Positions 6,093-41,078 of a DNA stretch of 64,000 bases are shown here, piece after piece. Both the position numbers and the translations under genes were made by a program. This stretch comes from Streptomyces globisporus (GTDB taxonomy: Bacteria > Actinomycetota > Actinomycetes > Streptomycetales > Streptomycetaceae): positions 62,001-126,000 of the forward strand of contig BMTG01000002.1 of NCBI GenBank assembly GCA_014649555.1. The letters are read 5' to 3'. Within the stretch, counting starts at the first letter, position 1. Each line of letters opens with the position of its first letter. Under the pieces are notes generated by a model that worked only from the letters and a program-made list of their open reading frames with translations, did not search any database and had not been told where the DNA came from.

Positions 6093-6100
6093 GGCGGCCC

Positions 6101-10759: not shown

Positions 10760-10843
10760 GGGCTCTGGTTTCCTGATCTGTCGGCGGTCGTCCGGCTCCG
10801 TCCGCACGGTGGGGAGCCCCTGAGGACGTAGCCTCTCACGCTC

Positions 10844-10908
10844 CCCGCCCGGAACTCCCGGGGTTTCGGGCGCGGCCGCGTCGGCATCCGGGAGTCCCGC
10901 AGGGCGGG
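10844..10908 (-). terminator. Long imperfect hairpin after the PI-PLC-like gene
   Basis: CCCGCCC (10844-10850) pairs with GGGCGGG (10902-10908), and an inner 11-base arm at 10851-10861 pairs with 10888-10898 with one mismatch. The loop is 26 bases. It starts 11 bases after the stop codon at 10919 on the minus strand. Confidence 0.6.
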
Positions 10909-10918
10909 CATCGTGCCG

Positions 10919-13138: not shown

Positions 13139-13207
13139 CCACCCAGCCTATGCGGAATATCAGCTTTTATGCATGAATGATGAGAATCAGGAGCTGAGGA
13201 GCCCGCC

Positions 13208-14095
13208 GTGCACCCCGTCCACCTGGCCGTGCTGATGACGAGTCACGACCACCGCGCGCGGACGCTGTCCGCGTTGCGCGCCCTGGAGGAGCAGCGCGGT
13301 CTCCCCGTCTGGACGACGCTGGGTGTGCATCTCGTGGACACCGGCAGCACCGACGGTACGCCGGAGGCGGTCCGGCTGCGCCATCCGGCGGTGGAGGTCA
13401 TGTCGGTGGGCGCGGACGTCTCCCGCAACCAGGCGCTGCGCATCGCGAGCCGGAACAGCCGCAGCGGCGGCGGGGGCGGCGGCCCGCTCGGCGGCACCCC
13501 GGGCGGGCCGAGCCACGCATGGACGCATCAGCTGTGGCTCGACGACGCCGTGGAGCTGTTCCCGGATGCCCTCGCGACGCTGTTGCGCACCTCGGAAGCG
13601 GCCGGTTCCGAGGCGGTCGTCGTCGGCGCGGTGCGCAACGCGTACGGGGACACGGTGTACTCCGGCCGGCGGGGCCGGTCCCTGACGCTCGTCGAGCCCG
13701 GCGCGCACCGGCCCGAGCGCTGCGACACGTACGACGGACGGGTGGTCCTGGTGCCCCGTGCGGTGTACGACGTCGTCGGCGACCCCGACAAGGTCTTCCG
13801 CCACCGGATGGGCGACTACGACCACGGCCGGCGCGCGCGACGGGCCGGGGTGGCCGCGTTCGTCGCACCGGGCCATGCCGGTGAGTGTGTGGGCAGGCCG
13901 GCTGCTCCCGGGAGCCGGGAGCCGGGGATCGGCGTCCGGGAGGCGCTGCGCCGGGTGACCTCCGTGCGGGAGCTGCCGCCGCGCCAGTGGTGGGTGTACT
14001 GCCTGCGGCACACCTGGCCGTGGGCGCCGTATCTGATGGTCTCCCCGTACGCGCGCACCGCGGCCCGCGCGACGGTCGGGCGGCTGCGGGGGTGA
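13208..14095 (+). CDS. Glycosyltransferase family 2-like protein
   Basis: 295 residues from GTG 13208, with AGGAGCTGAGGAG upstream. The GT-A fold is visible: HLAVLMTSHDHRARTLSALRAL, VDTGSTDGTPEAV, then WLDDAVELFPDAL, which replaces the usual DDD/LNDD metal-binding block. A Gly-rich insert (about residues 84-100) lies between the nucleotide-binding part and the acidic motif. A downstream WWVYCLRHTWPWAPYL segment suggests membrane contact. Acceptor and sugar are unknown; the convergent neighbour is a membrane sugar-phosphate transferase, which hints at cell-surface glycan work. Confidence 0.75.
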   Translation: MHPVHLAVLMTSHDHRARTLSALRALEEQRGLPVWTTLGVHLVDTGSTDGTPEAVRLRHPAVEVMSVGADVSRNQALRIASRNSRSGGGGGGPLGGTPGGPSHAWTHQLWLDDAVELFPDALATLLRTSEAAGSEAVVVGAVRNAYGDTVYSGRRGRSLTLVEPGAHRPERCDTYDGRVVLVPRAVYDVVGDPDKVFRHRMGDYDHGRRARRAGVAAFVAPGHAGECVGRPAAPGSREPGIGVREALRRVTSVRELPPRQWWVYCLRHTWPWAPYLMVSPYARTAARATVGRLRG

Positions 14096-14114
14096 CCCCG
14101 GTGGGCGGGCGGTG

Positions 14115-15401
14115 TCAGCCCCGTTCGGCCGCGGCCGTAGCGGTTTCGGCCACGGGTCGGCCGGTGGGCGGAGGCGGGACGGTGGGGTGCCCCGCGGCGG
14201 TCCTGGCGGCGGCGGAGGCGCCCTGGCCTGGAGCCGAGCCCTTGGCGCCCGGTGCGGAGGCCGCGGCGGGGATCGTGGCGTCGGACGCCTCTGTGCGCCG
14301 GGCGGCGGCCGTACGGGGCGGGGTCGAACCGGACGAAGTCGTACGGGAGTGAGTCACGCCGGTCGAGGCCGTACGGGGTGGGGTCGTACGGGAGGAGCCC
14401 GTGCGGGGCGGGGCGTGCGCCGGGATCCTCAGCAGGGCGAACACCGCGGCCGCCGTCCCCGCGAGCGGCAGGAGGAGGAACGCGGGGTGCAGCAGCTCCG
14501 CGTACACCAGGGCCCCGGTCGCCACGGGCACCGCAGCCCACAGCGCGGTCAGGACCGCGGTGCCCGGCACGGTGACACGGACCCGGCGAAGGCGGTGCGC
14601 GATGTGGTCATCCGCGTCGCGCAGCGGGGAACGCGCCGCGCGGCGGCGTGAGATCAGGACCAGGGCGCTGTCGGCGAGGGCCACCGTGGCCAGGGCCGGC
14701 AGCGCGGCCCACGCGGCGCGGCCCGACGGGGCGGCCGCCTGGATCAGCGCGCCGGAGGCGGCCAGGGCGAATCCGGTGAACTGCGCACCGGCCGCGCCGA
14801 GCCGGAGGCGTGCGGGGTGCCAGGTGTGGCGCAGGAAGCCGGCGAGGCCCGCCACCAGGGTCGTCGGCAGCAGCGCGAGAGCGGGGTCTCCGCCGACGAG
14901 GGCGCAGGTGAGCAGTCCGGCGGCGGTGACCAGTCCGACGGCGGTGAGCAGCCCGTCTGCGTGGTCGAGCAGGGCGAAGGCGTTGGTGACGAGGACGATC
15001 CAGAGCGCGGCCAGGATGCCCGCCGCCGGTGAGAGCCCGGCCAGGCAGACGACGAGGATCGCGGCGGCGATCTGAACGCCGAGACGCAGGGCGGCCCACA
15101 GGGGCTTCAGATCGTGGACGAGACCGAGGGCCGCCACGATCCCGGCCCCGGCGAGCAGCCCTCCGACGGAGCCCGCGGCATCGTCCGCCGCACCGAGCCA
15201 CAGGGCCACGCCGGTCGCCGTGCCGACACCGAGCACGGCCGTCGCGCCGCCCGTCCTGCGCAGTGCCTCGGCCCGTGGCGCACGCCCGCCCGGTTCGTCC
15301 GGGACGTGGGGGCGGAGCGCCACGCGGCGGGCACTCCTGGCGAGTGCGACCGTGATGAACAGCGCGGCCACACCGGAGGCGATGATCCCCAGCACGTTCA
15401 C
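14115..15401 (-). CDS. MraY/WecA-type sugar-phosphate transferase with repeat tail
   Basis: 428 residues from GTG 15401 (AGGAAAGG upstream); the frame extends to 15467 without a signal for initiation. Residues 1-300 hold about nine membrane segments and the family signature LVHDLKPLW and NAFALLDHADGLLTAV (the MraY NxxNLxDGxDGL block with changes). Family members move a sugar-1-phosphate from a nucleotide sugar to a polyprenyl phosphate. The last roughly 110 residues are a low-complexity Arg/Thr/Pro/Ser/Ala tail with a repeated PPRT and SRTT unit, probably cytoplasmic and disordered. Substitutions in the LDG block leave activity uncertain. Confidence 0.75.
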   Translation of the reverse strand: MNVLGIIASGVAALFITVALARSARRVALRPHVPDEPGGRAPRAEALRRTGGATAVLGVGTATGVALWLGAADDAAGSVGGLLAGAGIVAALGLVHDLKPLWAALRLGVQIAAAILVVCLAGLSPAAGILAALWIVLVTNAFALLDHADGLLTAVGLVTAAGLLTCALVGGDPALALLPTTLVAGLAGFLRHTWHPARLRLGAAGAQFTGFALAASGALIQAAAPSGRAAWAALPALATVALADSALVLISRRRAARSPLRDADDHIAHRLRRVRVTVPGTAVLTALWAAVPVATGALVYAELLHPAFLLLPLAGTAAAVFALLRIPAHAPPRTGSSRTTPPRTASTGVTHSRTTSSGSTPPRTAAARRTEASDATIPAAASAPGAKGSAPGQGASAAARTAAGHPTVPPPPTGRPVAETATAAAERG

Positions 15402-15654
15402 CTGCCCTGCCTTTCCTCGTTCGTGACCTGCCGCCCGGTCCCCCGCCGGTGGTGGGTCGGGGGACACAGGACGCCACCCGGGTGGCGTTTCTCCCCAACC
15501 TACGGGCCAATGCCCCGATTCACCCTAAATAACACGAAAAGGGCAAGGTATTGTTCTGCTGCCCGCTCGTGGGGTGACATGCCTCGACCGGCCGGCGGAC
15601 CCCAAGGGGGCGCGGATCTACCGGAGTTGGGAGGCACTGGCGGCGGAGGGGCCG

Positions 15655-16005
15655 TCAGCCGCCGGAGCACCGTTCGGCGTTGCGCTCGGCGGCGGCGTGC
15701 CACCAGCGCGGCGGGGAGGGTGCGGTGATCACCAAGGTGGGCTGATCGGGGTGCAGGCCCAGGGCGTGCAGCGTGGCGGCGTCGACCCGGACGGTGTACC
15801 AGCCGCGCCAGTGCCCGTCCGCGCCGATGCCGCAGGCGAGATCGCGGCGGATCAGCTCACCGGCGAAGGGCATCCAGTCGATGCCGCGGTCACGCAGTCA
15901 AGCGCGGAGGGCCGCCGGGGGCCGCGGGCAGCCCGGCAGGTTCTCGTACGACACGACCGACACCCACGCGGCGTCCGTCCCGCTCTCCCTCTTATCCGTA
16001 CGCAT
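15655..16005 (-). pseudogene. Uncharacterised small gene interrupted by an in-frame UGA
   Basis: From ATG 16005 the frame reads 35 codons, meets TGA at 15898-15900, and continues in the same frame for 81 codons to 15655. Both halves look like one protein: PGCPRPPAALRA, stop, LRDRGIDWMPFAGELIRRD and on to GWYTVRVDAATLHALGLHPDQP. A single C-to-T change in an Arg CGA codon would explain the stop. An ATG (15873) after the stop could allow a 72-residue product. The gene starts 17 bases after the amidohydrolase stop, probably in the same transcript. I do not recognise the family. Confidence 0.65.
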
Positions 16006-21556: not shown

Positions 21557-22588
21557 CTAGGCGCGGGAACCGGCAGAACGGGCGTAACTGCCCGGGCAGT
21601 TGGCCTGGCCGCTGTCGCGCCGGGCGGGACCCTGAGCCCGGGAGAGCATCAGCCGCCGTCGGGCGGTGTGCGCCTCGTCCGTGCCGATCAGCTCGCGCGC
21701 GTAGGAGCGCAGCAGGACGTCCAGCCCGAATCGGCCCGCCCTTTCGCGCACCAGATGGGCATCCGCGATCCGCGCCAGAAGTGCGGCCGAATCGGCCGGG
21801 GTTGTTCCCGCGAGCGCGGCGGCGGCGTCCACGGTGAGGTCGGGGCCGGGCAGCTGACCGAGGAGCCGGAACATCCGCCGGGCTTCGTCGGGAAGCGTGC
21901 GGTAAGACAGCTCGAAGGCGGAGCGTACGGCGGAGCGCCGGTCCCCTTCGATGCGCAGCCGGTCGAGGATGCCGTCGCCCGCGCCCGCCAGCTCGGCGCA
22001 GTGTGCGGCGATGTTCGCGTTGCGGGCCACCAGATTGGCTCCGGCGATCCGGATCGCCAGCGGCAGGCCGCCGCAGAGCTCCACGAGCCTGCGGGCCGCC
22101 GCCTCCTCGGCCGCGACGTTGCACGATCCGGCAATGCTGCCCAGCAGCCGGCGGCCCTCGTCCGGGTCGAGCACGTCCAGGGCGATCCGGCGGGCGCCCT
22201 CGGACGAGACCAGCCCGGCGAGCCGGCTGCGGCTGGTGACGACGACCGCGCAGCCCTGGGCGCCGGGGAGGAGCGGCCTGAGGCTCGGCAGGCCGGTGTC
22301 GCGCGGTGGCCCGGTGCGGGCGTCGGCCAGCAGGCCCGCCAGTTCGTCGTCGCTGAGCCCCAGCGTCCCGGCCAGGCTCCGCAGGGTGTGCACCCGGGGA
22401 CGCCGGGCGCGGCCGCGCTCGATGTCGCGCAGCGCTCTGGTACTGATCCCGGCGCGGGACGCGGCCGCCTCCTGACTCAGCCCGGCCCTCCGGCGGAACG
22501 ACTGGATCCGTGGGCCGACCGTGCCGCGCTCGTCTTCATGGCCCGGGCCGCCCTGCGGGTCCGCCGTCGCCGACGCCGTATCCGACAT
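21557..22588 (-). pseudogene. HTH/NB-ARC regulator with internal deletion and lost C terminus
   Basis: 343 codons. Residues 27-90 are an XRE-type helix-turn-helix ([31 protein letters not shown] split at 20). Directly after it comes LRPLLPGAQGCAVVVTSRSRLAGL, the part of NB-ARC ATPases just after Walker B, then LCGGLPLAIRIAGANL and the winged-helix part. The expected roughly 100-130 residues with the P-loop (GxGGxGKT) and Walker B are absent, and the TPR region that should follow ends in unrelated sequence. The frame is intact and the ATG has GGGGGAGA upstream, so a protein may be made, but it cannot work as a normal NTP-driven regulator. Confidence 0.65.
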
Positions 22589-26747: not shown

Positions 26748-28727
26748 TCACCCCGCCGCGCCGTGGACCGGGACGGGCGGCACCGCGGCCGGGTCCTCAT
26801 CCATCGGGTTCCAGGCCGCCGCGCACAGTGATTCGGACACGGCGGCCGTGTAGCGGGCGGCGGCCAGCCAGTACGCGGCGAAGCCGTCGGTGTCGGCGGG
26901 GAGCAGACGGCCGAACAGATCACGCTCACGCTGGGCGGCCGAGGCGGACAGGGCGGTGAGCAGGGCGGCGGCCGTGGGGAGACCGCCGCGGCGGATCCGG
27001 CGGGTCTCGGCGGTGACGTCGCCCAGCAGGCCGAGGGCGGCGCGGCCCGCCGCAACCGTCTGTTCGACCCGGCGCTCCAGGAGGTACAGGGGCGATGACC
27101 CGCCGGGTCCCGCGGTCTGTGGCGGGGCGAAGTGCGCGGAGGCGGACGGGTCCGGGAGGTCGGCGCGGCGCAGCCGGTCGAGGCCGAGGTCGACCGTGCC
27201 CTCGCCGGTGGGGTGCGTGCACGCGAGAAGGGTGAGACGGGGTTGGGTGGCGGGAATCAGGCGGCCGATGATCCTCAGCCGGGCCCCCGGCGCGGCGGCC
27301 AGCAGGGCCAGGTTGTCGCGGTGGGCCAGCGCCGGGTCGTCGTCGCTGACGGTGAGCCGGACCCGAACGCCTCCCTCGCACAGAGCGAGCAGGCACGTGC
27401 CGCCCGGTTCCCGTACCGCGCCGAGGAGTTCGACGTGCAGGAAGAGCAGGTCGCTGCCGGTGCCGTCCCGGTCCGCGTAGCGGGAGGTGGACCGCAGGGC
27501 GCGGGCGGCCTGTTCGGCCGGTGGCGTCTCCCACAGGGCGGCGAGCGGCGGGTCCGTCCACGCCACGCCCCGGGCGGTGACGGCCTTGACGGCCTTTCCG
27601 GCGCCCAGTCTGCCGTCCGGCGAGACCGTCGCGCCCGAAACGGCGAGCCCTGCGCGGCCCAGCTCCCGGTGGGTGAGGGCGCTGTCCCCCAGGCGCACGG
27701 CCCGGTCGGCCACGCCGAGGGCCCGCCCCGCACCGCCGGGCGCCACATCGCCGACGGTGAAGAGGCGGCCGTCGGCTCCGGCGACCCAGGTGCGGACGCC
27801 GCCGTGCCCCGAGTCGGTGACCACGGGTTCGGTGAACAGGCCGTACAGGCGGAGCGAGCCGTCCGGGCTGTAGGGCCGGCGCACCCGGCCTCTGACGGCG
27901 GCCATCTCCGCCCCGGACGCCGTCCCCACACGGTGGGCGGTGCCGAGGAGTTCGGCCAAGGCGGTGACGAGGTCGGCGGTGCGGTACGACGGGTCCCCGG
28001 CGCGGGCCGCGCGCAGCAGCGTGACGACGGAGAGCGCGGCGCCCGCGGCCCGGGGCAGGTGCCGGAGCCGGGCGGTGTGCGCGGCGCGCAGGAGGGCCGA
28101 CTGGGTGACGGCCCCGGCCCCGTCGACCCCGGCCTCCAGCACGGCGGCGCCCGCCGCCCAGAGGACGTCGGCGGCGGCACGCTGGTCCGGGCTCGCCGTC
28201 TCCGGCGGGGAGGCGAGGTCGGGAGCGGGGTTGGGGGTGACATGGAGGGCGAGGCCGAGGGCTGCGTTGGCGGCGGTGTCAGTGGTGGGCGCGGGTGCGG
28301 TGCCGGGGACGGAGGCGGGGGCGACGTCGAGGCCGAGGGAACGGGCGGCGTCGGGGCCGAGCGTGGCGGCCGGGGGCGTCGCCGAGGCCGGTCCCGGGGC
28401 TTCCGGGGTGGCCTGCTCGGCGGGCTCCGGCGCCAGGTCGGCGGCGGGGGCGGCGCAGGCCGCGGCCGCGCGGTGGACGCAGGCCGGGGCGAGGAGGCAG
28501 CGGCAGGTGATGTCCTCCACCTTCGCCACCACCCCGCCCGGGGCGTGCAGGCGCAGCTCGGTCTCGTCGTCGACGTCGATCGTCGTGGTGTCCCCGTCGC
28601 GGTGCGTCGGGCGGGCGGCGAGCTTGGTGACCGCCACGTCCAGCCGTTTGCGCAGCCGGGGCGAGAGGCCCTCCACGAGCGTGGCCGTGACCTCAGGTGC
28701 GACGGACGGCAACCGAGCGGCGTTCAT
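26748..28727 (-). CDS. SWIM zinc-finger protein, last gene of the MoxR-vWA operon
   Basis: 659 residues from ATG 28727, which overlaps the stop of the vWA gene by four bases. A SWIM zinc finger lies at residues 75-85 (Cys75-Arg-Cys77, Cys83-Val-His85) in VEDITCRCLLAPACVH. SWIM domains bind nucleic acid or protein. An Ala/Pro-rich linker runs to about residue 180, and the remaining 480 residues form an uncharacterised globular region with blocks such as GDPSYRTADLVTALAELLGTA and LFLHVELLGAV. SWIM proteins of this length are regular companions of MoxR/vWA operons in actinobacteria (from memory). It could be the substrate-recognition part. Confidence 0.82.
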   Translation of the reverse strand: MNAARLPSVAPEVTATLVEGLSPRLRKRLDVAVTKLAARPTHRDGDTTTIDVDDETELRLHAPGGVVAKVEDITCRCLLAPACVHRAAAACAAPAADLAPEPAEQATPEAPGPASATPPAATLGPDAARSLGLDVAPASVPGTAPAPTTDTAANAALGLALHVTPNPAPDLASPPETASPDQRAAADVLWAAGAAVLEAGVDGAGAVTQSALLRAAHTARLRHLPRAAGAALSVVTLLRAARAGDPSYRTADLVTALAELLGTAHRVGTASGAEMAAVRGRVRRPYSPDGSLRLYGLFTEPVVTDSGHGGVRTWVAGADGRLFTVGDVAPGGAGRALGVADRAVRLGDSALTHRELGRAGLAVSGATVSPDGRLGAGKAVKAVTARGVAWTDPPLAALWETPPAEQAARALRSTSRYADRDGTGSDLLFLHVELLGAVREPGGTCLLALCEGGVRVRLTVSDDDPALAHRDNLALLAAAPGARLRIIGRLIPATQPRLTLLACTHPTGEGTVDLGLDRLRRADLPDPSASAHFAPPQTAGPGGSSPLYLLERRVEQTVAAGRAALGLLGDVTAETRRIRRGGLPTAAALLTALSASAAQRERDLFGRLLPADTDGFAAYWLAAARYTAAVSESLCAAAWNPMDEDPAAVPPVPVHGAAG

Positions 28728-31700
28728 GCGGTCTTCTCCCCTATCCAGCGGGCCAGTTCAAGTGGGCTGAGGGCCGCCACGGGCATCCCGGCGGCCACGA
28801 GCTGCCCGGCTACGCCCGTCGAGTACCGGGGCCGGCCGGCGTCGTCGAGGCTCGCGCACCCGAGGACGTGGCAGCCGGTGTTCACCAGCGCCCGCACCTC
28901 GGCCAGCAGTCCGGCGAGCGGTCCTCCCTCCTCGAAGTCGCTGATGACGACGACGAGGGTGCGCGAGGGCACCTCGATCAGGCCGCGGGCGTGCCGGAGC
29001 CCGGCGGCGATGTGCGTTCCGCCGCCCACGCTCACTTCCAGCAGGAGGGAGAGGGGATCACGTACATGGCCGGTGAGGTCGACGACCTCCGTGGAGAACG
29101 CCAGGAAATGAGTGCTCAGGGTCGGCACCCCGGCGAGCACGGAGGCGGTCAGCGCGGACCAGATCGTGGAGGCCTCCATGGATCCGGAGACGTCGGTGAC
29201 CAGGATCAGGCGCCAGTCGGCCGACCTCCGGGCACGGCTGCGGAAGACGGGCTTCTCGGGGATCACCTGGATCGTGCCGTCGGCCGTCCGGCGGGCGGTG
29301 GCCAGATTGGCGTGCAGGGTGCGCGGCAGGTCGAGCCGGCCGCCGGGGCGGCGGGTGGGCCGGGCCGTCATCGCGCCGGTCAGCGCGGGGCGCAGCCGGG
29401 TGGCGAGCTGCCGGGTCAGTTCCTCGACCAGGTGGCGCACCAGCGGTCGGAGCGCCGCGAGGCGGGCTTCGGGAAGACCGCCGGCGTACTGCAGGATCGT
29501 CCGGAGCAGCTCCACCGAGGGGGTGGCGGCTGCCGGGTCGAGTTCGGCCAGGACGTCCTGGCGCCCCGTCACGGCCGCGGCGGCGAGGACCTCTTCGCGG
29601 ACACCGGGGCCGAACAGCGCGGCCAGTTCCTCGGACCACTCGCGTACACCGGGGAACGACGGCTCCCGACCGCCGCCGGCCCCGGAGCCGCCACGCCCGG
29701 GGAGGCCGCCGCGGGAACCCTCGCCGTGTCCCGCGCCGTAGAGCTCGTCCAGCGCGGTCGCCAGACGGGCGGCGCCGGACGGCAGCCGGTCGGAGCTCCG
29801 GCCGAGCACGAGCCGCCATCGGTCGGCGGGGGCGAGGGTACGGGCGGGAGCTTGGGCAGGGGTCGCCTCGGTGAGGGGTGCCGTGGCGGGGGACGCCTCG
29901 GCCGGGTGTACCTCGGTGGTGAGTGCCGTTACGGGGATCCCCTCGGTGAAGGGTGCCGTGGCGGGGGGTGCCTCGGCCCGGGGTGCGTCGGCCGGCCCGG
30001 CACCCGTGAGGGGTGCGGTCGCGGGGGCTGCGGCGGTGTGGTCCGACGGCGGTAGGACCCGGCCGTTGCGCGGCGACGGCGGGACGGGCAGGCCGAGTCC
30101 GGTCAGCAGCTCCCGGGCCGCGAGGTCGGCGGCCGTACGGCGGGCCAGTTCGGCCGGATCGTCGGCGTCGAGGTCGTCCACCCGTTCGCCCAGCCGCTCC
30201 TCGACGGTGCCCAGCAGGCGGTCCCGGGCGGCCGGGCTCAGGGTGTCGAAGCCACCGCGCAGGGCCGGCAGGCGGGCCAGGAACGCGGAGTCGTCCAGCT
30301 CGACGACCCGGCCCAGCAACGGGTCCAGGGCGCCGGCGCCGGCGGTCAGGAGCGGGCCCGCGACCGTCAGGACGCCGGAGAGCCGGGCCGTGAGCGTGGC
30401 CCGGGAGGTGCTGTCCACGGCTCCGTCCACCCAGGAGGCGACGCGCTCCCCGAAGGCCCCGGCCTCTTGGTGGCCGGTGAGCACCCTGACCGCTCCGGCC
30501 GCCGCGGCGATTAGCGGGGCGCCGTCGGCGGCCAGCCGGGCGAGGGCGTCGGTGAGCCGGATGCCGCCCAGCCGGTCGGCCCGCTGGGCCAGTTCGAGCA
30601 GGGCGCGGGCGTCCTCGGGCTTCTCGGAGCCGGTCAGCCCCTCGACCTGGCGGACCGCGGCAGCGGTCAGCAGTTCCGCCGCGTGCGCGGTGCGGGCGGC
30701 CCTGGTGGTGTCGGCGGTGTCCGGGGCCGCCGCAGGGCCGTCGGACTCGGTCAGGCCCGGCAGATGGCCCGCGTCGATGCGGTCCAGCAGGTCGAGCCCG
30801 GCGAGGAGTTCGGGAAGGGTGCCGCTCGCGGGAAGCACGGCCGCGAGTTCGGTCAGCCGTTCGTCGGCCGGAGCGGGCAGCCCGCACGCGGCGGCCTCCG
30901 CGAGGCCGCGGACGACCTGAGCGGCCGTCGGACCGCCCTCCGCACGCTCGGCCGCGTGGCGCTGCCGCAATACGCCCTCGGCCGCCTGGGCCGGTGTGAC
31001 GCCACGGGCCCCGGCCGCGGTGAGCATCGCGGCCGTCGCCGGGGTCCACCGCACCCGCCAGCGTGTCGTCAGTCCTTCACCACCCGCCGCACCGGTCACC
31101 TCCTGCTCCTGTGCGTAGGGAATTCCGCACACCGTCAGCCTGCGCAGGAGCAGTTCGCGGCGGCGGTCCAGGTCGGACCGTGCAGGGTCGAGCCGGAGGT
31201 CGCGCGGTGCCTTCTCGTGCGCGTCCTGCGGCCCGGGAAGCGCGAGCGCCGCGGTCTCGGTCTCGACGGCGGGGCTCAGTCCGCTGCGCGGAGCGGCGGG
31301 TGCGGGCCGTCCGGTGCGGGCTCCGACGAGCACGCGCTCAAGGGCCTGGGCGAGGGCGCGGCCCGTGCCGTAGGTCTCGCCGCGCCCCAGCACCGTCTGC
31401 ACGGCTTCCAGCAGTTCACCGCGGCCCGGCGCGGGCAGGTCGCGCAGCCGGGCCAGGTCACCGGCGACGCGGACGATCTCCCGGCCGTCCGCCGGGCCGT
31501 AGGGGTGCCCCTGTTCGCGCAGGGCGACGCAGAGCCGTACGGCGGTGCGGACCAGCGCCTCGTGCACCGCCGCCGGGTCCCCGGCGGCCTCCAGGACGGT
31601 GTGCTGCCACTCCGGGTCGCGGATGCCGGCCGGGTAGCCGGAGCGGGAGTCGAGCAGCGGGTACGTGTACGGGATCAGGGAGACCGTGCACGCGGCCGCC

Positions 31701-32713
31701 CCGGCAGTGCCGTCGGCGTACCCGCCTTCGCTCGGCTCCGGCACGGAGGACGGGCCCGGCGTTCCCGCCTCCTCGGCGGCGGCAACGACAGGGCCGACGG
31801 TCCCGTCCGCCCCCGCCGCTGACCGCAACAGCGCCGGGGTGTGGAAGGCGCCCACCACCACGGCGGGCCGCCGTCCGTCCGCCAGGGCCTCCGCGACATG
31901 TCCGCGCATGCACGCCTCGCGTACGAGGTCCGTGCCGTGCACCCCGCCCCGCGCCTCGGCCTCGTGACGCAGCGCCCAGCCGGTGAGCAGGGCGGCACGG
32001 CGGAGCGCCTCGGGTCTCGAGCCGGGCGCCTGGGCCTCCACCAGGCGGTCCCACAGGTCGTCGCCGTCCCGGCCGGTGAGCCGGGACCGGAGCGCGGCGG
32101 ACAGCCCGTCCCCCTCCCCCGGCACGGGTGCGGAGGCGGCGCCGGGAACCGGGGCGGGGGCTCCGTCGCGGCCCTCCGCCCACGCCCGGTCGGCCAGAGA
32201 CAGATCGCAGGCCACGGCCGGGACGCCGTTCCTCGCCGCCCAGCGCAGCGCGACCAGTTCGGGCGAGAAGTCCGCGAACGGGTAGAAGGCCGGGCCCCGT
32301 TCACCCGCCGGGCCGGCTCCGGGTCCGGCGGCGGGCACGGCGGCCAGCGCCACCGGGGCCTCGGTCTCCTCGTGGGCGAGCCAGCCCAGCCAGGGCTGGA
32401 ACTCGGCGGGCAGTTCGACGAGGAGGACGTCGGGATCGGCCGCGTCCAGCAGGGCGGGCAGGGCGGCCGCCAGCGAGGGCGCGTGGTGGCGCACCCCGAT
32501 CAGGAACGGCGTCCCGGGGCCGGCCGCCGCGAGGGCCTCCACCGCCGCTTCCGCGGTGGCCGGTCCGCCCGCCGGACCCCGCCCGGGAACCTCGGGAACC
32601 ACGGGAGCCGTGGGAGCACCGGCGGGCCCGCCGCCGGCGGCCGACGCCTCGGCGGAGGCGCCGGCCGCCGCCACCGTCCCCGTCCCCGCCCCGCGCATGG
32701 TCGACTCGTTCAT
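28724..32713 (-). CDS. DUF5682 plus C-terminal vWA domain protein
   Basis: 1329 residues. The N-terminal part (about 55-350) carries the DUF5682 marks FLIGVRHHAPSLAAALPALL and DVLLVELPAEFQPWL. A long Ala-rich helical middle follows, with a Pro/Thr-rich low-complexity linker around 890-960 built from repeated PATAPLTE-like units. Residues about 1165-1329 are a von Willebrand A domain with a full MIDAS: DVSGSM (about 1171), Thr in GGGTHIAAGL and Asp in VISDFEEG. MoxR ATPases act with vWA proteins as chaperone-like pairs (RavA-ViaA, NorQ-NorD). The MoxR gene ends three bases upstream and the SWIM gene overlaps the stop, so one coupled transcript is certain in outline. Confidence 0.85.
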   Translation of the reverse strand: MNESTMRGAGTGTVAAAGASAEASAAGGGPAGAPTAPVVPEVPGRGPAGGPATAEAAVEALAAAGPGTPFLIGVRHHAPSLAAALPALLDAADPDVLLVELPAEFQPWLGWLAHEETEAPVALAAVPAAGPGAGPAGERGPAFYPFADFSPELVALRWAARNGVPAVACDLSLADRAWAEGRDGAPAPVPGAASAPVPGEGDGLSAALRSRLTGRDGDDLWDRLVEAQAPGSRPEALRRAALLTGWALRHEAEARGGVHGTDLVREACMRGHVAEALADGRRPAVVVGAFHTPALLRSAAGADGTVGPVVAAAEEAGTPGPSSVPEPSEGGYADGTAGAAACTVSLIPYTYPLLDSRSGYPAGIRDPEWQHTVLEAAGDPAAVHEALVRTAVRLCVALREQGHPYGPADGREIVRVAGDLARLRDLPAPGRGELLEAVQTVLGRGETYGTGRALAQALERVLVGARTGRPAPAAPRSGLSPAVETETAALALPGPQDAHEKAPRDLRLDPARSDLDRRRELLLRRLTVCGIPYAQEQEVTGAAGGEGLTTRWRVRWTPATAAMLTAAGARGVTPAQAAEGVLRQRHAAERAEGGPTAAQVVRGLAEAAACGLPAPADERLTELAAVLPASGTLPELLAGLDLLDRIDAGHLPGLTESDGPAAAPDTADTTRAARTAHAAELLTAAAVRQVEGLTGSEKPEDARALLELAQRADRLGGIRLTDALARLAADGAPLIAAAAGAVRVLTGHQEAGAFGERVASWVDGAVDSTSRATLTARLSGVLTVAGPLLTAGAGALDPLLGRVVELDDSAFLARLPALRGGFDTLSPAARDRLLGTVEERLGERVDDLDADDPAELARRTAADLAARELLTGLGLPVPPSPRNGRVLPPSDHTAAAPATAPLTGAGPADAPRAEAPPATAPFTEGIPVTALTTEVHPAEASPATAPLTEATPAQAPARTLAPADRWRLVLGRSSDRLPSGAARLATALDELYGAGHGEGSRGGLPGRGGSGAGGGREPSFPGVREWSEELAALFGPGVREEVLAAAAVTGRQDVLAELDPAAATPSVELLRTILQYAGGLPEARLAALRPLVRHLVEELTRQLATRLRPALTGAMTARPTRRPGGRLDLPRTLHANLATARRTADGTIQVIPEKPVFRSRARRSADWRLILVTDVSGSMEASTIWSALTASVLAGVPTLSTHFLAFSTEVVDLTGHVRDPLSLLLEVSVGGGTHIAAGLRHARGLIEVPSRTLVVVISDFEEGGPLAGLLAEVRALVNTGCHVLGCASLDDAGRPRYSTGVAGQLVAAGMPVAALSPLELARWIGEKTA

Positions 32714-32716
32714 CCG

Positions 32717-33952
32717 TCAGCTCTCCAGCACCGAGCGCAGGTCCCACAGCGCACGCCACGTGGCCGAACCCTGTTCCGCGCGCCTGCGCACCGGCCCGTC
32801 CCAGTACCCCAGCAGCCGTGCCGCGTCGGCGGGGTCGTCCTTGCGGACGACACCGAGCAGATGGCCGGGCAGCAGGGAGAGCACGTCCCGGTCGCCGGGG
32901 AAATAGGCGGCGGCCAGGCCCAGGGAACCCGCGACGGAGACGGCCTCCGCCGTACTCATCACCGTGGAGGGGCGTTCAACCTCCCAGCCCTCAACGGAGC
33001 GGCCGTCGCGCAGGTCCCGGAAGGCGGTGACGAGGGCTTCGAGGACCGCGTCGTCCACCTGGTAGGCGGCGCCCACGCGTTCGACGGCGGCCCGCGACTG
33101 GCGCCGGACGAGCGCGGTCTCGGCGTCCACGTCACCGATGGGGCCCACGGTCTCGAAGCTGAAGCGCCGCTTCAGCGCGGCGGACATCTCCGAGACGCCC
33201 TTGTCGCGGAGGTTGGCGGTGGCGATGAGGGTGAAGCCGGGGGCCGCGTGGACCTGGGCGCCGTCGCCGCCCGCCAGTTCGGGCACCGCGATCCGCCGCT
33301 CGGAGAGCAGGGACACGAGGGCGTCCTGGACTTCCGGCAGACAGCGGGTGACCTCCTCGACGCGGGCGACGGCGCCCCGGGTCATGGCGGTGAGCACCGG
33401 GGAGGGCACCAGGGCCTGTTCGGTGGGTCCCTGGGCGAGCAGCAGCGCGTAGTTCCAGCCGTACTTGAGCTGGTCCTCCGTGGTGCCCGCGGTGCCCTGC
33501 ACGGTGAGCGCGCTGGTCCCGCAGACGGCCGCCGACAGCAGCTCGGAAAGCATGGACTTGGCGGTGCCGGGTTCGCCGACGAGGAGCAGGCCGCGTTCCC
33601 CGGCGAGGGTGACCACACACCGCTCGACCAGGGCACGTTCGCCGACGAACTTCTGCTCGATCACCAGACGGCGCGGCACTCCGGCACCGGGCCGGGCCCC
33701 CTTGGGCAGGGCCAGTGCGTCACCCGCGCTGCCCATCACGAAGGTGACGACGGCACGGGGGGTGAGCAGCCAGCCGGGCGGTCGGGGTCCGGAGTCGTGC
33801 GCGGCGAGGAAGGCCAGCTCGGTGGCGTACCGGTCCTCGGGCGGGGTGATCTGCCGTGGCTCGTGGCCGGGCGCCGCCGCCTGGCCCGGGACGCCTCCGG
33901 TGGTGCTGTCCGGCGTGGAGCTGTCCGGTGTGGTCGTGGTGTCGTTCGTCAT
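32717..33952 (-). CDS. MoxR-type AAA+ ATPase
   Basis: 411 residues from ATG 33952, which overlaps the preceding stop codon by four bases. Walker A is GEPGTAKS (126-133). The Walker B region reads GAVARVEEVTRCLPEVQDAL, so the usual Asp of IDE is Glu. Sensor 1 is IATANLRDKG and the arginine finger lies in ALKRRFSFE. A 95-residue N-terminal extension precedes the AAA+ core. MoxR proteins couple ATP hydrolysis to remodelling of a client through a vWA partner, here the next gene. The client is unknown. Confidence 0.9.
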   Translation of the reverse strand: MTNDTTTTPDSSTPDSTTGGVPGQAAAPGHEPRQITPPEDRYATELAFLAAHDSGPRPPGWLLTPRAVVTFVMGSAGDALALPKGARPGAGVPRRLVIEQKFVGERALVERCVVTLAGERGLLLVGEPGTAKSMLSELLSAAVCGTSALTVQGTAGTTEDQLKYGWNYALLLAQGPTEQALVPSPVLTAMTRGAVARVEEVTRCLPEVQDALVSLLSERRIAVPELAGGDGAQVHAAPGFTLIATANLRDKGVSEMSAALKRRFSFETVGPIGDVDAETALVRRQSRAAVERVGAAYQVDDAVLEALVTAFRDLRDGRSVEGWEVERPSTVMSTAEAVSVAGSLGLAAAYFPGDRDVLSLLPGHLLGVVRKDDPADAARLLGYWDGPVRRRAEQGSATWRALWDLRSVLES

Positions 33953-36900
33953 CGGCGGCGGCCCTTCCGGGTGGCGCGGGTGTTGAGTTCTTCGAAGGCG
34001 GGGGCGTCGCCGCCCCGGACCCGTGCCCAGGCGGCTGCGTACAGCGCGGGGACGGGGAGGTGGGGCAGGGTCCGGGCGGACCCCGCCACGGGGTACAGGC
34101 CTTCCTTCCAGGTCTCCAGCGGCAGCCCGGGGGCGCCGCGTTCGAGCCAGCCGCAGGGCAGGAACAGGGTGCGGCCGGCGCGGGAGCGCTTCGCCTCCAC
34201 GACGAGGTCGGTGGCGGCGAGTTCCGCGCGGGCCTTCTTGATCCGGCCCGGCTTCCACTCGGTCCAGCGGACGCAGTTGCGGTCCGTGGGGTCGGGCAGG
34301 GCGAGCAGCATCAGGTAGAGGGCGGCGGCGTCCTCGCTCAGGGCGAGGGAGGCGGCCGCCTCGGCCACCAGGTCCGGCACCGTACGCGTCGGGTCCTGGG
34401 CCGGGTGGTGGGCAAAGCCGTCGGGGGCACCCGACGAGGCCAGTGCGTCGGTCTCCTCCCCCAGCAGGGCGCGCAGGGCGAGGAGGTCGCCCGTGCGGTG
34501 GGGGCCGACGGTGCCCTCGACCAGGCCGAACACCGGATCGTCGGGGCCCTCCAGGCCCGCCGGGCGGATCAGCAGCCTCTCGCTGTCGCCGTACCCGGGG
34601 GCGAGGAGCAGCGCCGTGCCGGCCCGGACCAGTCCGTCCGCCTCGGCGCCGCCGGACTCGGGCAGTGCGTGGGCGGCGCGAATCGCGGTGCCGAGGGAGG
34701 TCCCCGACTCGGTCCAGTCCAGACCGAGGTCCAGCACCAGTCCGGGGTCGGCGAGGCGGCTCCGCAGAGCCGCGAGTCCGACGGGCAGGTGGGCCCGCAG
34801 GGGGTGCCCGTGCGGCAGCGTGTACGCGAGGGTGCGCAGGGCGGTCAGGGCGTTCGCGACCGCACCGCGCGCGCTGACCCGGTGCAGGGCCGGGCGGGCG
34901 CTGCCGTCGGGTACGGGGGTGCCGTGGGCGAGCCAGCTGCGGGTGCCCGCGTTGAGGATCAGGTCGACGGAGGCGGCAGTGGCCCCGCTGAGGTCGAGGT
35001 CCAGTTCCTCGGGCACGCGGACGAGGGAGCCCAGGAGTTCCCCCCACGTCTCGGCGGCGGCCCGGACGTCGGGGCCCGTGGCCCACAGTTCGGCCGGATC
35101 CGCGGGCAGCAGCGCCCGCAGCACGGTGTGCCGTTCGTCGCGGGGCAGGGCGTCCAGCCGGTCCTGGGCGGTCTCGAAGGCGCGGGTCTTCGTGCCCAGC
35201 AGGGCCAGCGCCTCGGCGCCGGGCTCCTCGACGGCTGCCGACAGCAGCGCGGTGGCCTGGAGGGGGCCGATTCCGGTGGCCGTGTGGAACGCCTCGGCTG
35301 CTTCCGGACGCCAGGGCGCCGGGCCCTTGTCGCGTACCAGGGCGGTGAGCCGGGTGAGCCGTTCGCGGGCGATGCCCTGCCGGTAGACGTGCTCGCGGTC
35401 GAGGGTGAAGCCGGGAACGGGCCCGAAGGCTCCGGTCGGATCGTGGTCCAGGGCGAGCCAGCGGGCCGCGTCGTCCCGGGAGTTGCGGCCGTGGTTGGCC
35501 AGGATCACGACGGTGCGGGCGCCCTTGCGGAGCACCTGGCCGAGGCGGTGCACGGCCTCGGGGCGTCCTGTGCGGCCGGGGGCCGCGGCGTCGAGCGGTT
35601 CGACGAGCTCCACCCGCCGGACCGTGCCCGCCGGGTCGGCCAGCGGGCCCGCGGCGAGCGCTTCCAGCAGGACGAGGAGCCCGGCACGGTGCTCGGCGGA
35701 GGTGGCCTCCGAGGCGGCCCGGTAGGCCAGTTCGGGCAGCTTGTCGAGGAGAGGGGTCCAGGCGAGGGATTCGCCGGGCACCGTGTACGCGTCGCGCTGC
35801 CAGCCGTCCACGGGGGTGAAGGGGACCTTCGACGGCGTGGCCGGGCCGAACGCCGGCTCACCGCCGAGGACGTGGTTGACGGCGAGGATCTGCCGGATCG
35901 CCGTCCACCGGCTCCCGCCTCCGTACCAGGAACCGCGCGCCTTCTCGGCGCCCCAGGCGGTGGCGGCCCGCAGGGTCGTGTCGTCGCCGTGCTCGGGCTC
36001 GTGGTCGAAGAACATGCCCTGGGTGCGTGCGGTGTTCCGGGGCGTGGCCGGCTGCGCGGGGGCGGGCGGCTCCAGGTACTGGGTGACCGCGACGGCCCGG
36101 TCCACGGCGTTCCGCACGATCGCGGTGACGCCCGCGAGGAGGCGTACGTCGGACACCTCGGGCAGGATCCGGGCGACGGCCTCCTGGCTCATCTCCTGCG
36201 ACGAGGGTCCGGTGTACTCCTCCACCGCCCGGAACGCCTTCAGATGCCGGACGACCGCGGCGGCGACCTCGTCGAACAGCTCGTGGGCCCGGGCCTCCGT
36301 CAGCTTCCGCAGGATGCCCGATCCCTGCTCGTCCCTCGGGCGCAGGGCGTGCCAGTAGACGGCGGGCGGCACATAGGGGGTGCCCGCCGCGTCGTTGCCG
36401 CCGGAGGAGTCGGTGCCGACGGACCACAGGCCGCCGCCGGTGCCGTCGGTGTCCTCCGGGTGCGCCTCGACGGACCGGTGGCGCAGGACCACGGCGGGCC
36501 GCGACCCGCCGGGCAGGGTGAGGGCGCCGAGCGGCACGACGGTGGCGCCATCGGGCAGCGGGTGCGGCAGGGCGACCGTGTGGCCGTCGGGGGTGCCGGC
36601 GACGGTCCGGTCCCCGTCGGCGGGGGCGGCCGTGCCGGGGTCGGTGGCGGTACGGCGGACCCAGCGGCCGAGAACCGTGCCGTCCGTGCCGAACGGGGTG
36701 GTCTCCAGGCCGGGCTGGAGGGGCAGCACCTGGCAGTGCTCGGCGAGCAGCCGGGTGCCGTCCCGCACCCCGGAGCGGAGGAAGGCGGGGAGGGAGGCGC
36801 GGCCGTGGGTACCGCTCACCGGGTCGTACTCCAGCCACACCCGCTGGGTGCCCTGGTGGCCCTCCCGCCAGTGGCCGGTGCCGTCGGCGAGGACGGCGCG

Positions 36901-39129
36901 CTGGGGCGGCAGGGTGGTGTCGCCCGCGTGCAGGGCCTTGCCGCCGGTGGCGGTGCCGCCGCCGGGCAGCGGTACGGAGACCTCGTCGGTGAGACCGGGG
37001 CGGCCCCAGCGGGGGATCTGTTCGCCGCCGACGGTGAAGACCTCGGCGGGGCGGTGCGACCAGTAGCCGTGCTGCTTGCCGTCCTCCCACCAGATCACCA
37101 GCAACTCGCCGTCGACGAAGCGGAAGGCGGGTGTCCGCCACTGGTCGGTGGAGGGGGGCAGCCGCAGGGTGTGCCGCAGCAGAACACCTTCCGGGCCGAC
37201 GACGACGGCCCGTTCCTGCGTGCTCAGGATCAGCGCGGGCCAGGCATCGGTGACGCCGACGTTCTGCGACCGGTTGTTCGCCCGCCGCGATGCGGTGGCG
37301 GCCTCTGCGGCCAATTCGGTGTAGGTCTCGTCGAGCGCGGGCCAGCCCAGTTCGTCGAAGACGCCCGTGCGGAGGGTGGAGGCGAGCAGGGGTACGACGT
37401 CGTGCTCTTCGAGCAGACGCGCGGCCTCCGGGGCGACGTCCGCGACGACGGCGCGGAACGGCGAGAGCTTGTTGAGGGCGATGCGCAGCCCCGGCAGACC
37501 TCGTGCGGCGGTGTACTCCTCGGCGCAGCCGGTCAGCCACTCGCGCAGGAGGACGGAGAGCACCGGGTGCGCGGCCGTCTTCGCCATGCCGGCGTCGCTC
37601 AGCCGCTGGCCGCGCCCGTCGCCGAGGCCGCCGACGTTCCGGCGCAGGAGGTCACGGAAGCCAGGGTGTCCGGCGACGGCGGCGAGATCCCGCTGTCCGG
37701 GCTCGTCGTCGGCGAGCCACTGTCCCAGCGCGAAGCCGTTCGACCGCCCGTGGCCACGGCCCGTGTCCGCGTCGTCCGGCTCGGCCACGGGGACCCCGGA
37801 GGCCAGGCAGAGGTCGAGAAGGTCCAGGTCGGCCGTGGGCTGCCAGCGGCCCTGGAACAGTTCGACGGGGCGTCCGTCGGCGCGCAGCCGGTCCGTCATC
37901 CGGGCGGTGAGGTCCAGGGTGCGGGGGCTGCGGCCCGAGGTGGCCCGGTTGCGGCGTCGGTACGCCTCCCAGCGGGCGAGCCAGTCCGCCGGGGAGACGG
38001 CCGGGTCGGCGGAGTCGGAAGAGGCCGGGAGTGCGGTCAGCAGTTCCTCGGCGCCGGAGTCGGCCAGCAGGGCGAGCCAGCCGGATTCGCCGTCCGTGTC
38101 ACGGCCGTTCTCGCTGAAGGTCTCGGGGAAGAAACCGAGGAGCCGGGCGCGCACGGAGGCGTCCGCCCGGGCGAGGCCGGTGAGCGCGGAGCCGTAGGTC
38201 GCCCAGAAGGAGGCAGGGGCGCGTACGACTCCGGGAGAGCCGATCAGGTCGGCCACGAGCTCGCGTTCGGCGCTCTCGCGGTCCAGCCCGGCGGCCTTGA
38301 CCAGCGTGCGTACGTCCTGCGGCAGCGCCGCGTACGGCGGCATCCCGGCGGCGCAGCGCTCCACCAGCAGGCGGCGGAACTGCCCCCAGGCGTCGGCCGG
38401 TGCGAGCCGGGCCACCAGGTCGCGCACGTACTGGCGCAGGGCCTTGACGGTCAGTGCGCCGGCGAGGGCGAACTCCAGGAAGACGGCGCGCTGCCGGTCC
38501 TCGTCCACGACCAGGCCGTGGACGCGCTCGGCCTCGCGGGCCTTGCCGAAGAAGGAGGCGGCGTAGGTGGCGTTCTCGGCCTGGAGGAAGAGGCGGGCCA
38601 CCTGCTCGTAGTAGGTGGGGAGGAAGTGCGGCACGGCCCGGCCGAGGCGGGTGCCGAGTTCGTCGAAGCCCTCCTTGGCGGCACCGGCGCGGGTCTTGGC
38701 CTGCCGGCCGAGCCGCTCGATGTCCTTGACCAGGGCGAGGGCGTGGTGTCCGTTGGCCGGGTCGTTGACCAGGGCCCAGGCGGGGAAGCCCAGTGTCTCG
38801 CGGCGGACCTGCCCGACGACGGGGGCCTCGGCGGTCCGGGCCAGCCCCAGGAACTCCAGGGCGAGGTCCTCGGCCTCGCCGAGCGTGCCCGGGACGAGCC
38901 GGACCACCGGGCGGTCCCCGAGGGCGGTGTGCGTGTAGGTGCGCGCGGTCAGATGGTCGGCGTCGTCCCGGTCGGTGGTACCGGCCGGGAGGATCGCGCC
39001 CGCGTCCAGCAGGCTCGCCGCGCGGGCCTCGGCGGCGAGGGCGGAGGCGTTGCGGCCCCGGTTCTGGGCGGGAAGGGCCGTCGAGCCCGGTGCCGCCGTG
39101 TTCACTTCGGTGTTCGTCGTGTTGCTCAT
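33949..39129 (-). CDS. 1726-residue uncharacterised protein of the MoxR-vWA operon
   Basis: ATG 39129 overlaps the DUF4132 stop and the gene's own stop overlaps the MoxR start (four bases each), so it sits in the middle of a translationally coupled run. No signal peptide or membrane segment is visible. The N-terminal 500 residues are helical (QVARLFLQAENATYAASFFG, AYRRRNRATSG). The middle has beta-rich blocks that resemble a propeller or surveillance fold (WPALILSTQERAVVVGPEG, FRFVDGELLVIWWEDG). The C-terminal part includes DPTDRNCVRWTEWKPGRIKK and a basic stretch. No catalytic motif was found. Its size suggests a scaffold or client-capturing subunit; I cannot name a family. Confidence 0.75.
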   Translation of the reverse strand: MSNTTNTEVNTAAPGSTALPAQNRGRNASALAAEARAASLLDAGAILPAGTTDRDDADHLTARTYTHTALGDRPVVRLVPGTLGEAEDLALEFLGLARTAEAPVVGQVRRETLGFPAWALVNDPANGHHALALVKDIERLGRQAKTRAGAAKEGFDELGTRLGRAVPHFLPTYYEQVARLFLQAENATYAASFFGKAREAERVHGLVVDEDRQRAVFLEFALAGALTVKALRQYVRDLVARLAPADAWGQFRRLLVERCAAGMPPYAALPQDVRTLVKAAGLDRESAERELVADLIGSPGVVRAPASFWATYGSALTGLARADASVRARLLGFFPETFSENGRDTDGESGWLALLADSGAEELLTALPASSDSADPAVSPADWLARWEAYRRRNRATSGRSPRTLDLTARMTDRLRADGRPVELFQGRWQPTADLDLLDLCLASGVPVAEPDDADTGRGHGRSNGFALGQWLADDEPGQRDLAAVAGHPGFRDLLRRNVGGLGDGRGQRLSDAGMAKTAAHPVLSVLLREWLTGCAEEYTAARGLPGLRIALNKLSPFRAVVADVAPEAARLLEEHDVVPLLASTLRTGVFDELGWPALDETYTELAAEAATASRRANNRSQNVGVTDAWPALILSTQERAVVVGPEGVLLRHTLRLPPSTDQWRTPAFRFVDGELLVIWWEDGKQHGYWSHRPAEVFTVGGEQIPRWGRPGLTDEVSVPLPGGGTATGGKALHAGDTTLPPQRAVLADGTGHWREGHQGTQRVWLEYDPVSGTHGRASLPAFLRSGVRDGTRLLAEHCQVLPLQPGLETTPFGTDGTVLGRWVRRTATDPGTAAPADGDRTVAGTPDGHTVALPHPLPDGATVVPLGALTLPGGSRPAVVLRHRSVEAHPEDTDGTGGGLWSVGTDSSGGNDAAGTPYVPPAVYWHALRPRDEQGSGILRKLTEARAHELFDEVAAAVVRHLKAFRAVEEYTGPSSQEMSQEAVARILPEVSDVRLLAGVTAIVRNAVDRAVAVTQYLEPPAPAQPATPRNTARTQGMFFDHEPEHGDDTTLRAATAWGAEKARGSWYGGGSRWTAIRQILAVNHVLGGEPAFGPATPSKVPFTPVDGWQRDAYTVPGESLAWTPLLDKLPELAYRAASEATSAEHRAGLLVLLEALAAGPLADPAGTVRRVELVEPLDAAAPGRTGRPEAVHRLGQVLRKGARTVVILANHGRNSRDDAARWLALDHDPTGAFGPVPGFTLDREHVYRQGIARERLTRLTALVRDKGPAPWRPEAAEAFHTATGIGPLQATALLSAAVEEPGAEALALLGTKTRAFETAQDRLDALPRDERHTVLRALLPADPAELWATGPDVRAAAETWGELLGSLVRVPEELDLDLSGATAASVDLILNAGTRSWLAHGTPVPDGSARPALHRVSARGAVANALTALRTLAYTLPHGHPLRAHLPVGLAALRSRLADPGLVLDLGLDWTESGTSLGTAIRAAHALPESGGAEADGLVRAGTALLLAPGYGDSERLLIRPAGLEGPDDPVFGLVEGTVGPHRTGDLLALRALLGEETDALASSGAPDGFAHHPAQDPTRTVPDLVAEAAASLALSEDAAALYLMLLALPDPTDRNCVRWTEWKPGRIKKARAELAATDLVVEAKRSRAGRTLFLPCGWLERGAPGLPLETWKEGLYPVAGSARTLPHLPVPALYAAAWARVRGGDAPAFEELNTRATRKGRRR

Positions 39130-39986
39130 GCCGCCCGCTCCTCGTCCTCCACGTCGCGTCCGGCGTAGAGCGCCGCCGCCATGCGCATGCCCTCGGACCA
39201 CGCGACGCGGCCGACCTCGGCCGCCGTCAGCGCGCGCCCCGAGGCGTCGGTCCAGCCCAGCGGGCCTGTCTCGGTGCCGTACGCGTCGTATCCGTCGTGC
39301 TCGCCGATCCAGATGCGCGCCTCGACGCCGACGCCGTCCTCGACGACCGGGCAGACCGCGTATCCGCCGCGCGACCGGTATCCGAGCTGGGTGACGCGGC
39401 TGTGCAGGAAGCGCAGTTCCTTGAACACGCCGCCGGCGAAGGTGTCCACGGAGGTGGCGTCCGGGGCGAGGCCGACCGGGCGGTGCCACACCTCGCGGAA
39501 CAGCTGCTCGACGTTTTGGCGGACTTCCAGTTCGACCGCGAACTCCCGCAGTTCGTCGAGGTCCTCCAGGAGGACGGGGTGGGGCACATGGACGATGTCC
39601 GGGGTGATGCGGACCGTGTCGCCGTCCAGGTCGACGAGGCCGAGGCCGCGCTCGGGATCGACGTCGCGCAGGAACCCGGCGACTCCGCCGTCCGCGCCGG
39701 TGACCACGACGTCCCGCAGGGCGGCCTGCCACGCCGGGTCGGGCCAGACCCGGGCGAGCACGGCGGTGGGAACGGGCAGCGAACGCACCATCCACTGCTC
39801 GACGTCGCTCAGGCACCGCTGCTCGTGCCGCTCCAGCCACTCGGTCAGCTGCCGGAGACCGACGACCGCCGGATCGTCCTTCAATTTCGCCGGAACGGAC
39901 TTGAGCCGTCGGCCCTTTCCGTTGCGGCAGACCACCTTGCCCGCCTCCAGAGCGACTTCGTAGTCGCCCGCCGGAACCCACCCCAT
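39126..39986 (-). CDS. DUF4132 domain protein, first gene of the MoxR-vWA operon
   Basis: 286 residues from ATG 39986 with GGGGAG upstream. The opening GWVPAGDYEVALEAGKVVCR, NGKGRRLKSVPAKLKDDPAV and the following helical region match the DUF4132 domain found at the C terminus of E. coli YehI/MolR-like proteins. Here the domain stands alone. YVAGRD-like tail (MAAALYAGRDVEDEERAA) overlaps the next start. The function of DUF4132 is not known. It heads the five-gene operon, and the 249 bases upstream contain the sprT terminator and presumably the operon promoter. Confidence 0.82.
   Translation of the reverse strand: MGWVPAGDYEVALEAGKVVCRNGKGRRLKSVPAKLKDDPAVVGLRQLTEWLERHEQRCLSDVEQWMVRSLPVPTAVLARVWPDPAWQAALRDVVVTGADGGVAGFLRDVDPERGLGLVDLDGDTVRITPDIVHVPHPVLLEDLDELREFAVELEVRQNVEQLFREVWHRPVGLAPDATSVDTFAGGVFKELRFLHSRVTQLGYRSRGGYAVCPVVEDGVGVEARIWIGEHDGYDAYGTETGPLGWTDASGRALTAAEVGRVAWSEGMRMAAALYAGRDVEDEERAA

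Positions 39987-40235: not shown

Positions 40236-41078
<843 letters not shown>

Follow-up and report, generated by a model that had tools for sequence, protein, structure and literature searches.

The 64,000-nucleotide stretch of Streptomyces globisporus DNA analysed here (contig BMTG01000002.1, positions 62,001 to 126,000; hereafter the window) carries a five-gene operon that, by sequence comparison, is an enlarged Streptomyces variant of the yeh operon of Escherichia coli. The operon is composed of two modules: a recognition pair, made up of a short DUF4132 protein (gene 1) and a giant protein (gene 2), and an engine, made up of a MoxR AAA+ ATPase (gene 3), a DUF5682–vWA fusion (gene 4) and a SWIM-motif protein (gene 5) (Table 1). 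We consider it probable that the whole is a YehL-type MoxR/vWA remodelling machine, in a DUF4132-linked form that has been enlarged in Streptomyces.

In E. coli K-12, the genes run yehI (DUF4132), yehK, yehL (MoxR), yehM, yehP (vWA) and yehQ (SWIM). Aligned over 383 columns, the gene 3 product and YehL share 44% identity (E = 3e-95). Gene 4 is a fusion of YehM and YehP: its first half matches YehM (28%, E = 4e-25) and its last part matches YehP (38%, E = 9e-60). Gene 5, called SWIM because of its CxCx5CxH motif (CRCLLAPACVH), agrees with YehQ only in motif, position and size; a profile comparison aligned the motif, but at P = 0.16. New relative to yeh are the short DUF4132 protein and the 1726-residue protein, which replace YehI. 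Pfam detects DUF4132 and no WGR domain in gene 1; a YehI-like protein in the window's genus has both WGR and DUF4132. Homology of gene 2 to YehI was considered and found no support: hhalign gave P = 0.66, and hmmsearch at E = 1 hit neither the E. coli proteins nor the open reading frames (ORFs) of 19 loci. The original prediction, made from the window sequence, had treated the job of this larger MoxR/vWA form as not established; its engine stands, and the precedent that it missed is the yeh operon.

Table 1. Features of the five-gene operon, in window coordinates
Feature	Coordinates	Strand	Basis
Gene 1: DUF4132 protein, 286 residues	39126..39986	minus	PF13569, 98.6 bits (cut-off 27); frame GC; the genome's sole DUF4132 match
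Gene 2: giant protein, 1726 residues	33949..39129	minus	no Pfam, NCBIfam or PADLOC match
Gene 3: YehL-type MoxR AAA+ ATPase, 411 residues	32717..33952	minus	identity to E. coli YehL; AAA_5, 128.4 bits
Gene 4: DUF5682 fused to CoxE-type vWA, 1329 residues	28724..32713	minus	DUF5682 (PF18934), 667.9 bits; VWA_CoxE (PF05762), 219.3 bits
Gene 5: SWIM-motif protein, 659 residues, positional counterpart of YehQ	26748..28727	minus	motif; no Pfam match
ATGA overlap, gene 1/gene 2	39126..39129	minus
ATGA overlap, gene 2/gene 3	33949..33952	minus
ATGA overlap, gene 4/gene 5	28724..28727	minus
Gene 2 residues 127-617: predicted helical solenoid	37279..38751	minus
Gene 2 residues 625-905: predicted beta-propeller-like region	36415..37257	minus	model strands; Foldseek
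Gene 2 residues 1582-1658: predicted winged helix	34156..34386	minus
Gene 3 Walker A, GEPGTAKS	33554..33577	minus
Gene 4 DUF5682 N-terminal part, invariant His76, His77, Glu100, Arg265-Glu266, His291; proposed Tiki/TraB-like	31814..32509	minus
Gene 4 vWA domain, complete MIDAS (DVSGS, GGGT, SD)	28742..29407	minus
Gene 5 SWIM zinc-finger motif, CRCLLAPACVH	28473..28505	minus

The presence of a MoxR/vWA engine in one operon, proposed originally, is supported by its motifs: Walker A, sensor, Arg-finger and MIDAS motifs are all present. Walker A, sensor and Arg finger occur in all 21 YehL-type MoxR rows compared, and Walker B reads EE in the same 21 rows versus DE in RavA, making EE a possible signature of the YehL family. 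The MIDAS elements DxSxS and GGGT are found in seven of seven operon rows and the closing SD, by pattern, in six of these; the SWIM motif is present in all seven orthologues of gene 5. No Pfam family matched the gene 2 and gene 5 proteins, and the NCBIfam matches lie far under the cut-offs.

Reading of the junctions confirmed that the five genes are joined by three ATGA overlaps and a 3-bp gap, the gap lying between genes 3 and 4. The codon-position GC pattern tracks each called frame and switches at the junctions, with a third-position GC of 0.895 to 0.935 per gene. A fixed production ratio, as had been claimed, goes beyond what the overlaps support, which is co-transcription and coupled translation at most. 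A promoter and terminator scan gave no promoter-like sites and two terminator-like sites versus 1.2 expected. The operon indeed lacks TTA codons (0 of 4411), though this is weak evidence because just 1.4 would be expected from the 29 other ORFs of the window (3 of 9753).

Conservation was assessed in a phylum sample of 296 genomes and in a pattern-based scan that took in 84,980 species, each represented by one genome. In the former, gene 2 is present in seven genomes including the window's own, always adjoined by DUF4132 and DUF5682, and the five genes are colinear in all six other carriers. An eighth candidate carrier, G275 (E = 6.7e-4 over 67 residues, with two internal stops), was attributed to chance and left out. 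The species scan returned 452 relatives; among the best 80 of these, which were analysed, 63 loci hold the complete operon in colinear order, contig ends truncate 16, and the remaining one is an orphan gene 1–2 pair. The closest named relative of gene 2 is that of Streptomyces rubiginosohelvolus (96%). In these loci the upstream gene ends in ATGA at the gene 1/2 junction in 77 of 80 (GTGA in 3), at the gene 2/3 junction in 70 of 75 (GTGA in 5) and at the gene 4/5 junction in 60 of 63. In a seven-locus extraction, another start was picked for gene 3 (L015, L018) or gene 5 (L016), and the overlapping start is thus not certain in every relative. Median identity over the best segment falls from MoxR (88%) through DUF4132 (77%), DUF5682–vWA (75%) and SWIM (59%) to the giant (55%).

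Eleven plasmid records match gene 2, five of them covering at least 80% of it. Two of these five were read and both are complete operons on linear Streptomyces plasmids, one of them adjoining an IS110 transposase. No sixth member of the operon emerged: among ORFs of at least 110 residues lying up to 6 kb away, every flanking family was confined to 18 or fewer of 87 loci. Recent transfer had been thought unlikely. This holds for the window's copy, whose codon use follows that of the 29 other window ORFs (r = 0.97), but the operon does travel, because complete copies lie on linear plasmids and no flanking family is widely kept. Two neighbours in the window were also recorded: at 21557-22588, a helix-turn-helix (HTH) protein with an NB-ARC-like stretch, whose HTH part only is matched by the PADLOC capH model; and at 40236-41054, on the same strand as the operon and 249 bp upstream of it, a trypsin-like protease gene, found in 6 of 86 relatives' loci, whose protease domain is hit by PADLOC LmuA at 38 bits.

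The gene 1–2 pair is a separable unit, because it occurs without an engine match in distant relatives. More distant relatives of gene 2 lie on the other six plasmid records, and the stretches read around them gave no engine match. A gene 1–2 pair is present in L134 (Embleya) and L135 (S. nigrescens); in L136 (Nonomuraea, 8029-12924), DUF4132 and giant homology lie in one open frame of 1631 residues, with DUF4132 near the N terminus (55.7 bits), a fusion which argues that the gene 1 and gene 2 proteins act together. For these three loci, the 6 to 8 kb read on each side contain no match to MoxR, DUF5682 or SWIM. In L137, L138 and L139, all or part of gene 2 is present but gene 1 is not. A DUF5682 search of five such records, that of L136 not among them, gave one match, about 340 kb off in the record of L134. 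The orphan pair of S. phaeofaciens (L108, 8177-14058) still ends in ATGA with no MoxR after it, and a second, complete and diverged operon lies elsewhere on the same contig. It had been set beforehand as a test that homologues of the five genes stay together in other genomes: they do among close relatives (63 of 80 loci complete; six of six sampled carriers) but not in L134, L135 and L136.

Engines also exist without the pair. The window's own genome has three DUF5682 matches and one DUF4132 match; its type A module (C1) comprises MoxR, DUF5682 and vWA genes with a divergent SWIM gene, and a type C module is described below. DUF5682 proteins of the type A kind, as judged by score, occur in nine of nine sampled genomes of the genus versus six of nine for the window type, and type A neighbourhoods were read in two of the nine (L006, L031). 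L029, L030 and L032 carry DUF4132 proteins of further kinds and have no engine in the neighbourhood. In a MoxR tree, one branch (91/95, not starred) has all 11 engines that lack DUF4132 on the same side; as drawn, the DUF4132-linked rows are not a clade, the outgroup branches being long and the root unsure.

Structure prediction suggests that the giant combines a helical solenoid, a beta-propeller-like region and, towards the C terminus, a winged helix. In the propeller-like region the model contains strands, parts of it with a predicted local distance difference test score (pLDDT) under 50, and propeller proteins make up many of the best Foldseek hits, with E about 0.01 and above. Self-comparison with hhalign gave no significant internal repeats in gene 2, and its profile had no matches among the sequences of solved structures. 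Three Pfam families appeared in seven gene 2 orthologues, each in at most two members (PHP_C in two, best E = 0.00072), and were ascribed to chance. An orthologue on a plasmid carries the annotation 'DNA-binding protein'. Client recognition had been assigned to both the giant and the SWIM protein; the structure models are consistent with such a role for the giant, and for the SWIM protein, of which the motif was examined, it is a conjecture.

Comparisons of the N-terminal part of DUF5682 are suggestive, and suggestive only, of a Tiki/TraB-type hydrolase. The residues His76, His77, Glu100, Arg265-Glu266 and His291 are invariant in 14 of 14 sequences, including E. coli YehM and types A, B and C; in a second alignment, three rows begin past the His pair. 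Their order and spacing resemble those of TraB/GumN proteins (YbaP His41, Glu67, Arg228 and Gly249xxHis252), and in our reading the His and Glu residues may be equivalent to the 2His/2Glu set described in the excerpted source (PMC6254334). A permissive Pfam scan of 14 DUF5682 members gave weak matches to two families of the Tiki superfamily, ChaN in three members (best E = 0.032) and TraB in one (E = 0.03). With hhalign, DUF5682 aligned to nine TraB/GumN proteins at P = 0.0042 on the RxxM...GAxH block, three unrelated profiles giving 0.5-0.9, and comparison with two TraB sequences gave nothing. In hmmsearch runs on very small sets, a TraB profile found one of 14 DUF5682 proteins at E = 0.00023, and in the reverse search the DUF5682 profile reached E = 0.0007 to 0.0016 with three of the nine TraB proteins, YbaP scoring 0.69. 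Several results weigh against the assignment: the same permissive scan returned four unrelated families, in one member each, with a best E of 0.011; the window's own DUF5682 protein reached just E = 0.53 with the TraB profile; and the one solved-structure match of the DUF5682 profile was an unrelated synthase (E = 0.073), matched on the same GxFH-type C-terminal block, which by itself is therefore unspecific.

In the mechanism that we propose, gene 3 would form an AAA+ ring on which the C-terminal vWA domain of gene 4 would sit, docking the client through its MIDAS metal, and ATP turnover would pull gene 4 and thereby remodel the client. Gene 5 would contribute a zinc-binding SWIM module. The DUF4132 protein and the giant, with its predicted solenoid, propeller and winged helix, would form a two-part scaffold for finding the client, which is probably a complex on nucleic acid or close to it, and the DUF5682 N-terminal domain may act as a Tiki/TraB-like hydrolase on the client once delivered. 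We infer complex formation, direction of action, client and catalysis alike. Excerpts of two papers on NorQD report that a vWA finger enters the AAA+ pore (PMC13036017) and that the MIDAS is needed for client activation and not for NorQ binding (PMC9976466). Counting against a single machine is the pair without an engine nearby in L134, L135 and L136, which means that the operon is not indivisible. A bolder form of the proposal holds that DUF5682 is a Tiki/TraB-fold peptidase or hydrolase built into the vWA partner; YehL-type machines, that of E. coli included, would then be ATP-gated enzymes in which the ring feeds or unmasks an active site, and the DUF4132–giant cassette, whether alone, fused or engine-linked, would bring clients from nucleic-acid-bound complexes. 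We regard this as rather unlikely; were it right, one class of MoxR/vWA machines would shift from chaperone to ATP-gated enzyme.

A role in conflict or defence, in which the fast-evolving gene 1–2 pair would be the sensor and the MoxR/vWA pair would set the threshold at which an effector responds, is tenable but somewhat unlikely. An excerpted paper proposes that MoxR–vWA ternary systems work in this way (PMC7159879), and several features fit: among the five genes, median identity is lowest for gene 2 (55% versus 88% for MoxR), presence is patchy (six of nine sampled genomes of the genus), an orphan pair, linear-plasmid copies (one beside an IS110 transposase) and variable flanks occur, and 2 of 10 flanking proteins partly match PADLOC models, capH and LmuA among them. 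Both flank matches, however, are limited to the HTH and protease domains, and none of the five operon proteins matches PADLOC (2023 library, which cannot exclude a new system). Pfam and NCBIfam scans of the five recognised no effector or signalling domain, gene 3 scores 22.3 bits with the bpMoxR family, under its cut-off of 27, and a pattern-based scan of viral contigs gave 109 pattern matches, none of them a gene 2 relative. A related operon, moreover, sits in the chromosome of E. coli K-12.

The two modules could instead be separate systems on one transcript, the DUF4132–giant pair having its own nucleic-acid role beside an independent MoxR/DUF5682–vWA/SWIM chaperone. Such independence would account for the pair without an engine nearby (L134, L135, L136, L108) and for engines without DUF4132 (C1 and C3 of the window's own genome; other types A and C). 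We nevertheless judge it improbable: gene 2 ends in ATGA or GTGA ahead of gene 3 in 75 of 75 testable loci, and DUF4132 adjoins an engine of the YehL type in E. coli as well as in L020 and L021, from two other genomes of the sample. Distinctly doubtful is a chaperone of the NorQD sort that inserts cofactors into metal or molybdenum enzymes, the SWIM protein handling the metal. The well-studied MoxR/vWA pairs do include a metal-insertion case, as excerpted (PMC13036017, PMC9976466), and in the excerpts of two further sources a MolR label is given to DUF4132 and WGR proteins (PMC8533742) and molR is tabled as a regulator of molybdenum use (PMC4245954), the identity of that molR1 with yehI not being established. 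Yet no metalloenzyme recurs as a neighbour, given the limit of 18 of 87 loci for any flanking family, and our open-access literature search found no molybdate test of the yeh operon; nor did it find a paper on the function of that operon. A YehL-type remodelling machine remains the reading that we favour.

Two further loci were noted. The third DUF5682 module of the window's own genome (type C; vWA–MoxR–DUF5682; L007, own genome C3:95000-114999, 5598-11211) is diverged and has a gene resembling a non-ribosomal peptide synthetase in its vicinity. No Pfam match at E = 0.01 was obtained for the DUF5682 protein of this module, although the stretch scored 99.7 bits in the genome search. A close yeh copy in another genome of the genus (L020, G128, 5017-15746) encodes YehL-like (64% identity) and YehP-like (58%) proteins and a WGR-DUF4132 protein; that genome has no gene 2 match, and the copy may reflect transfer between phyla.

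Compared with known systems, the operon shares with NorQ–NorD and RavA–ViaA a MoxR AAA+ protein with a vWA partner; the Walker B of RavA is DE and that of the window's MoxR is EE, and the excerpted NorQD sources mention no DUF5682, DUF4132 or SWIM partner (PMC13036017, PMC9976466). MoxR–vWA beta-propeller ternary systems likewise encode MoxR, vWA and a beta-propeller together, as far as the excerpted paper goes (PMC7159879), whereas the propeller in the window is predicted in a separate solenoid protein and not C-terminal to the vWA, whose match ends at residue 1324 of 1329. The type A module (C1; L006) has the same MoxR family (46%), DUF5682, vWA and SWIM protein and neither DUF4132 nor the giant. 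The analysis has mainly yielded a connection to yeh, an anatomy of two modules and, for DUF5682, a hydrolase proposal that can be tested, and these bear on an operon in the chromosome of the best-studied bacterium. In the yeh operon of E. coli, the order of MoxR, DUF5682, CoxE-type vWA and SWIM is the same, and upstream of them lies a DUF4132 gene. In the window, by contrast, DUF5682 and vWA are fused, DUF4132 forms a separate protein of 286 residues (YehI has 1210) and a 1726-residue protein without detectable relation to YehI is added. The Streptomyces form splits and exposes the parts, its engine and recognition pair being separable.

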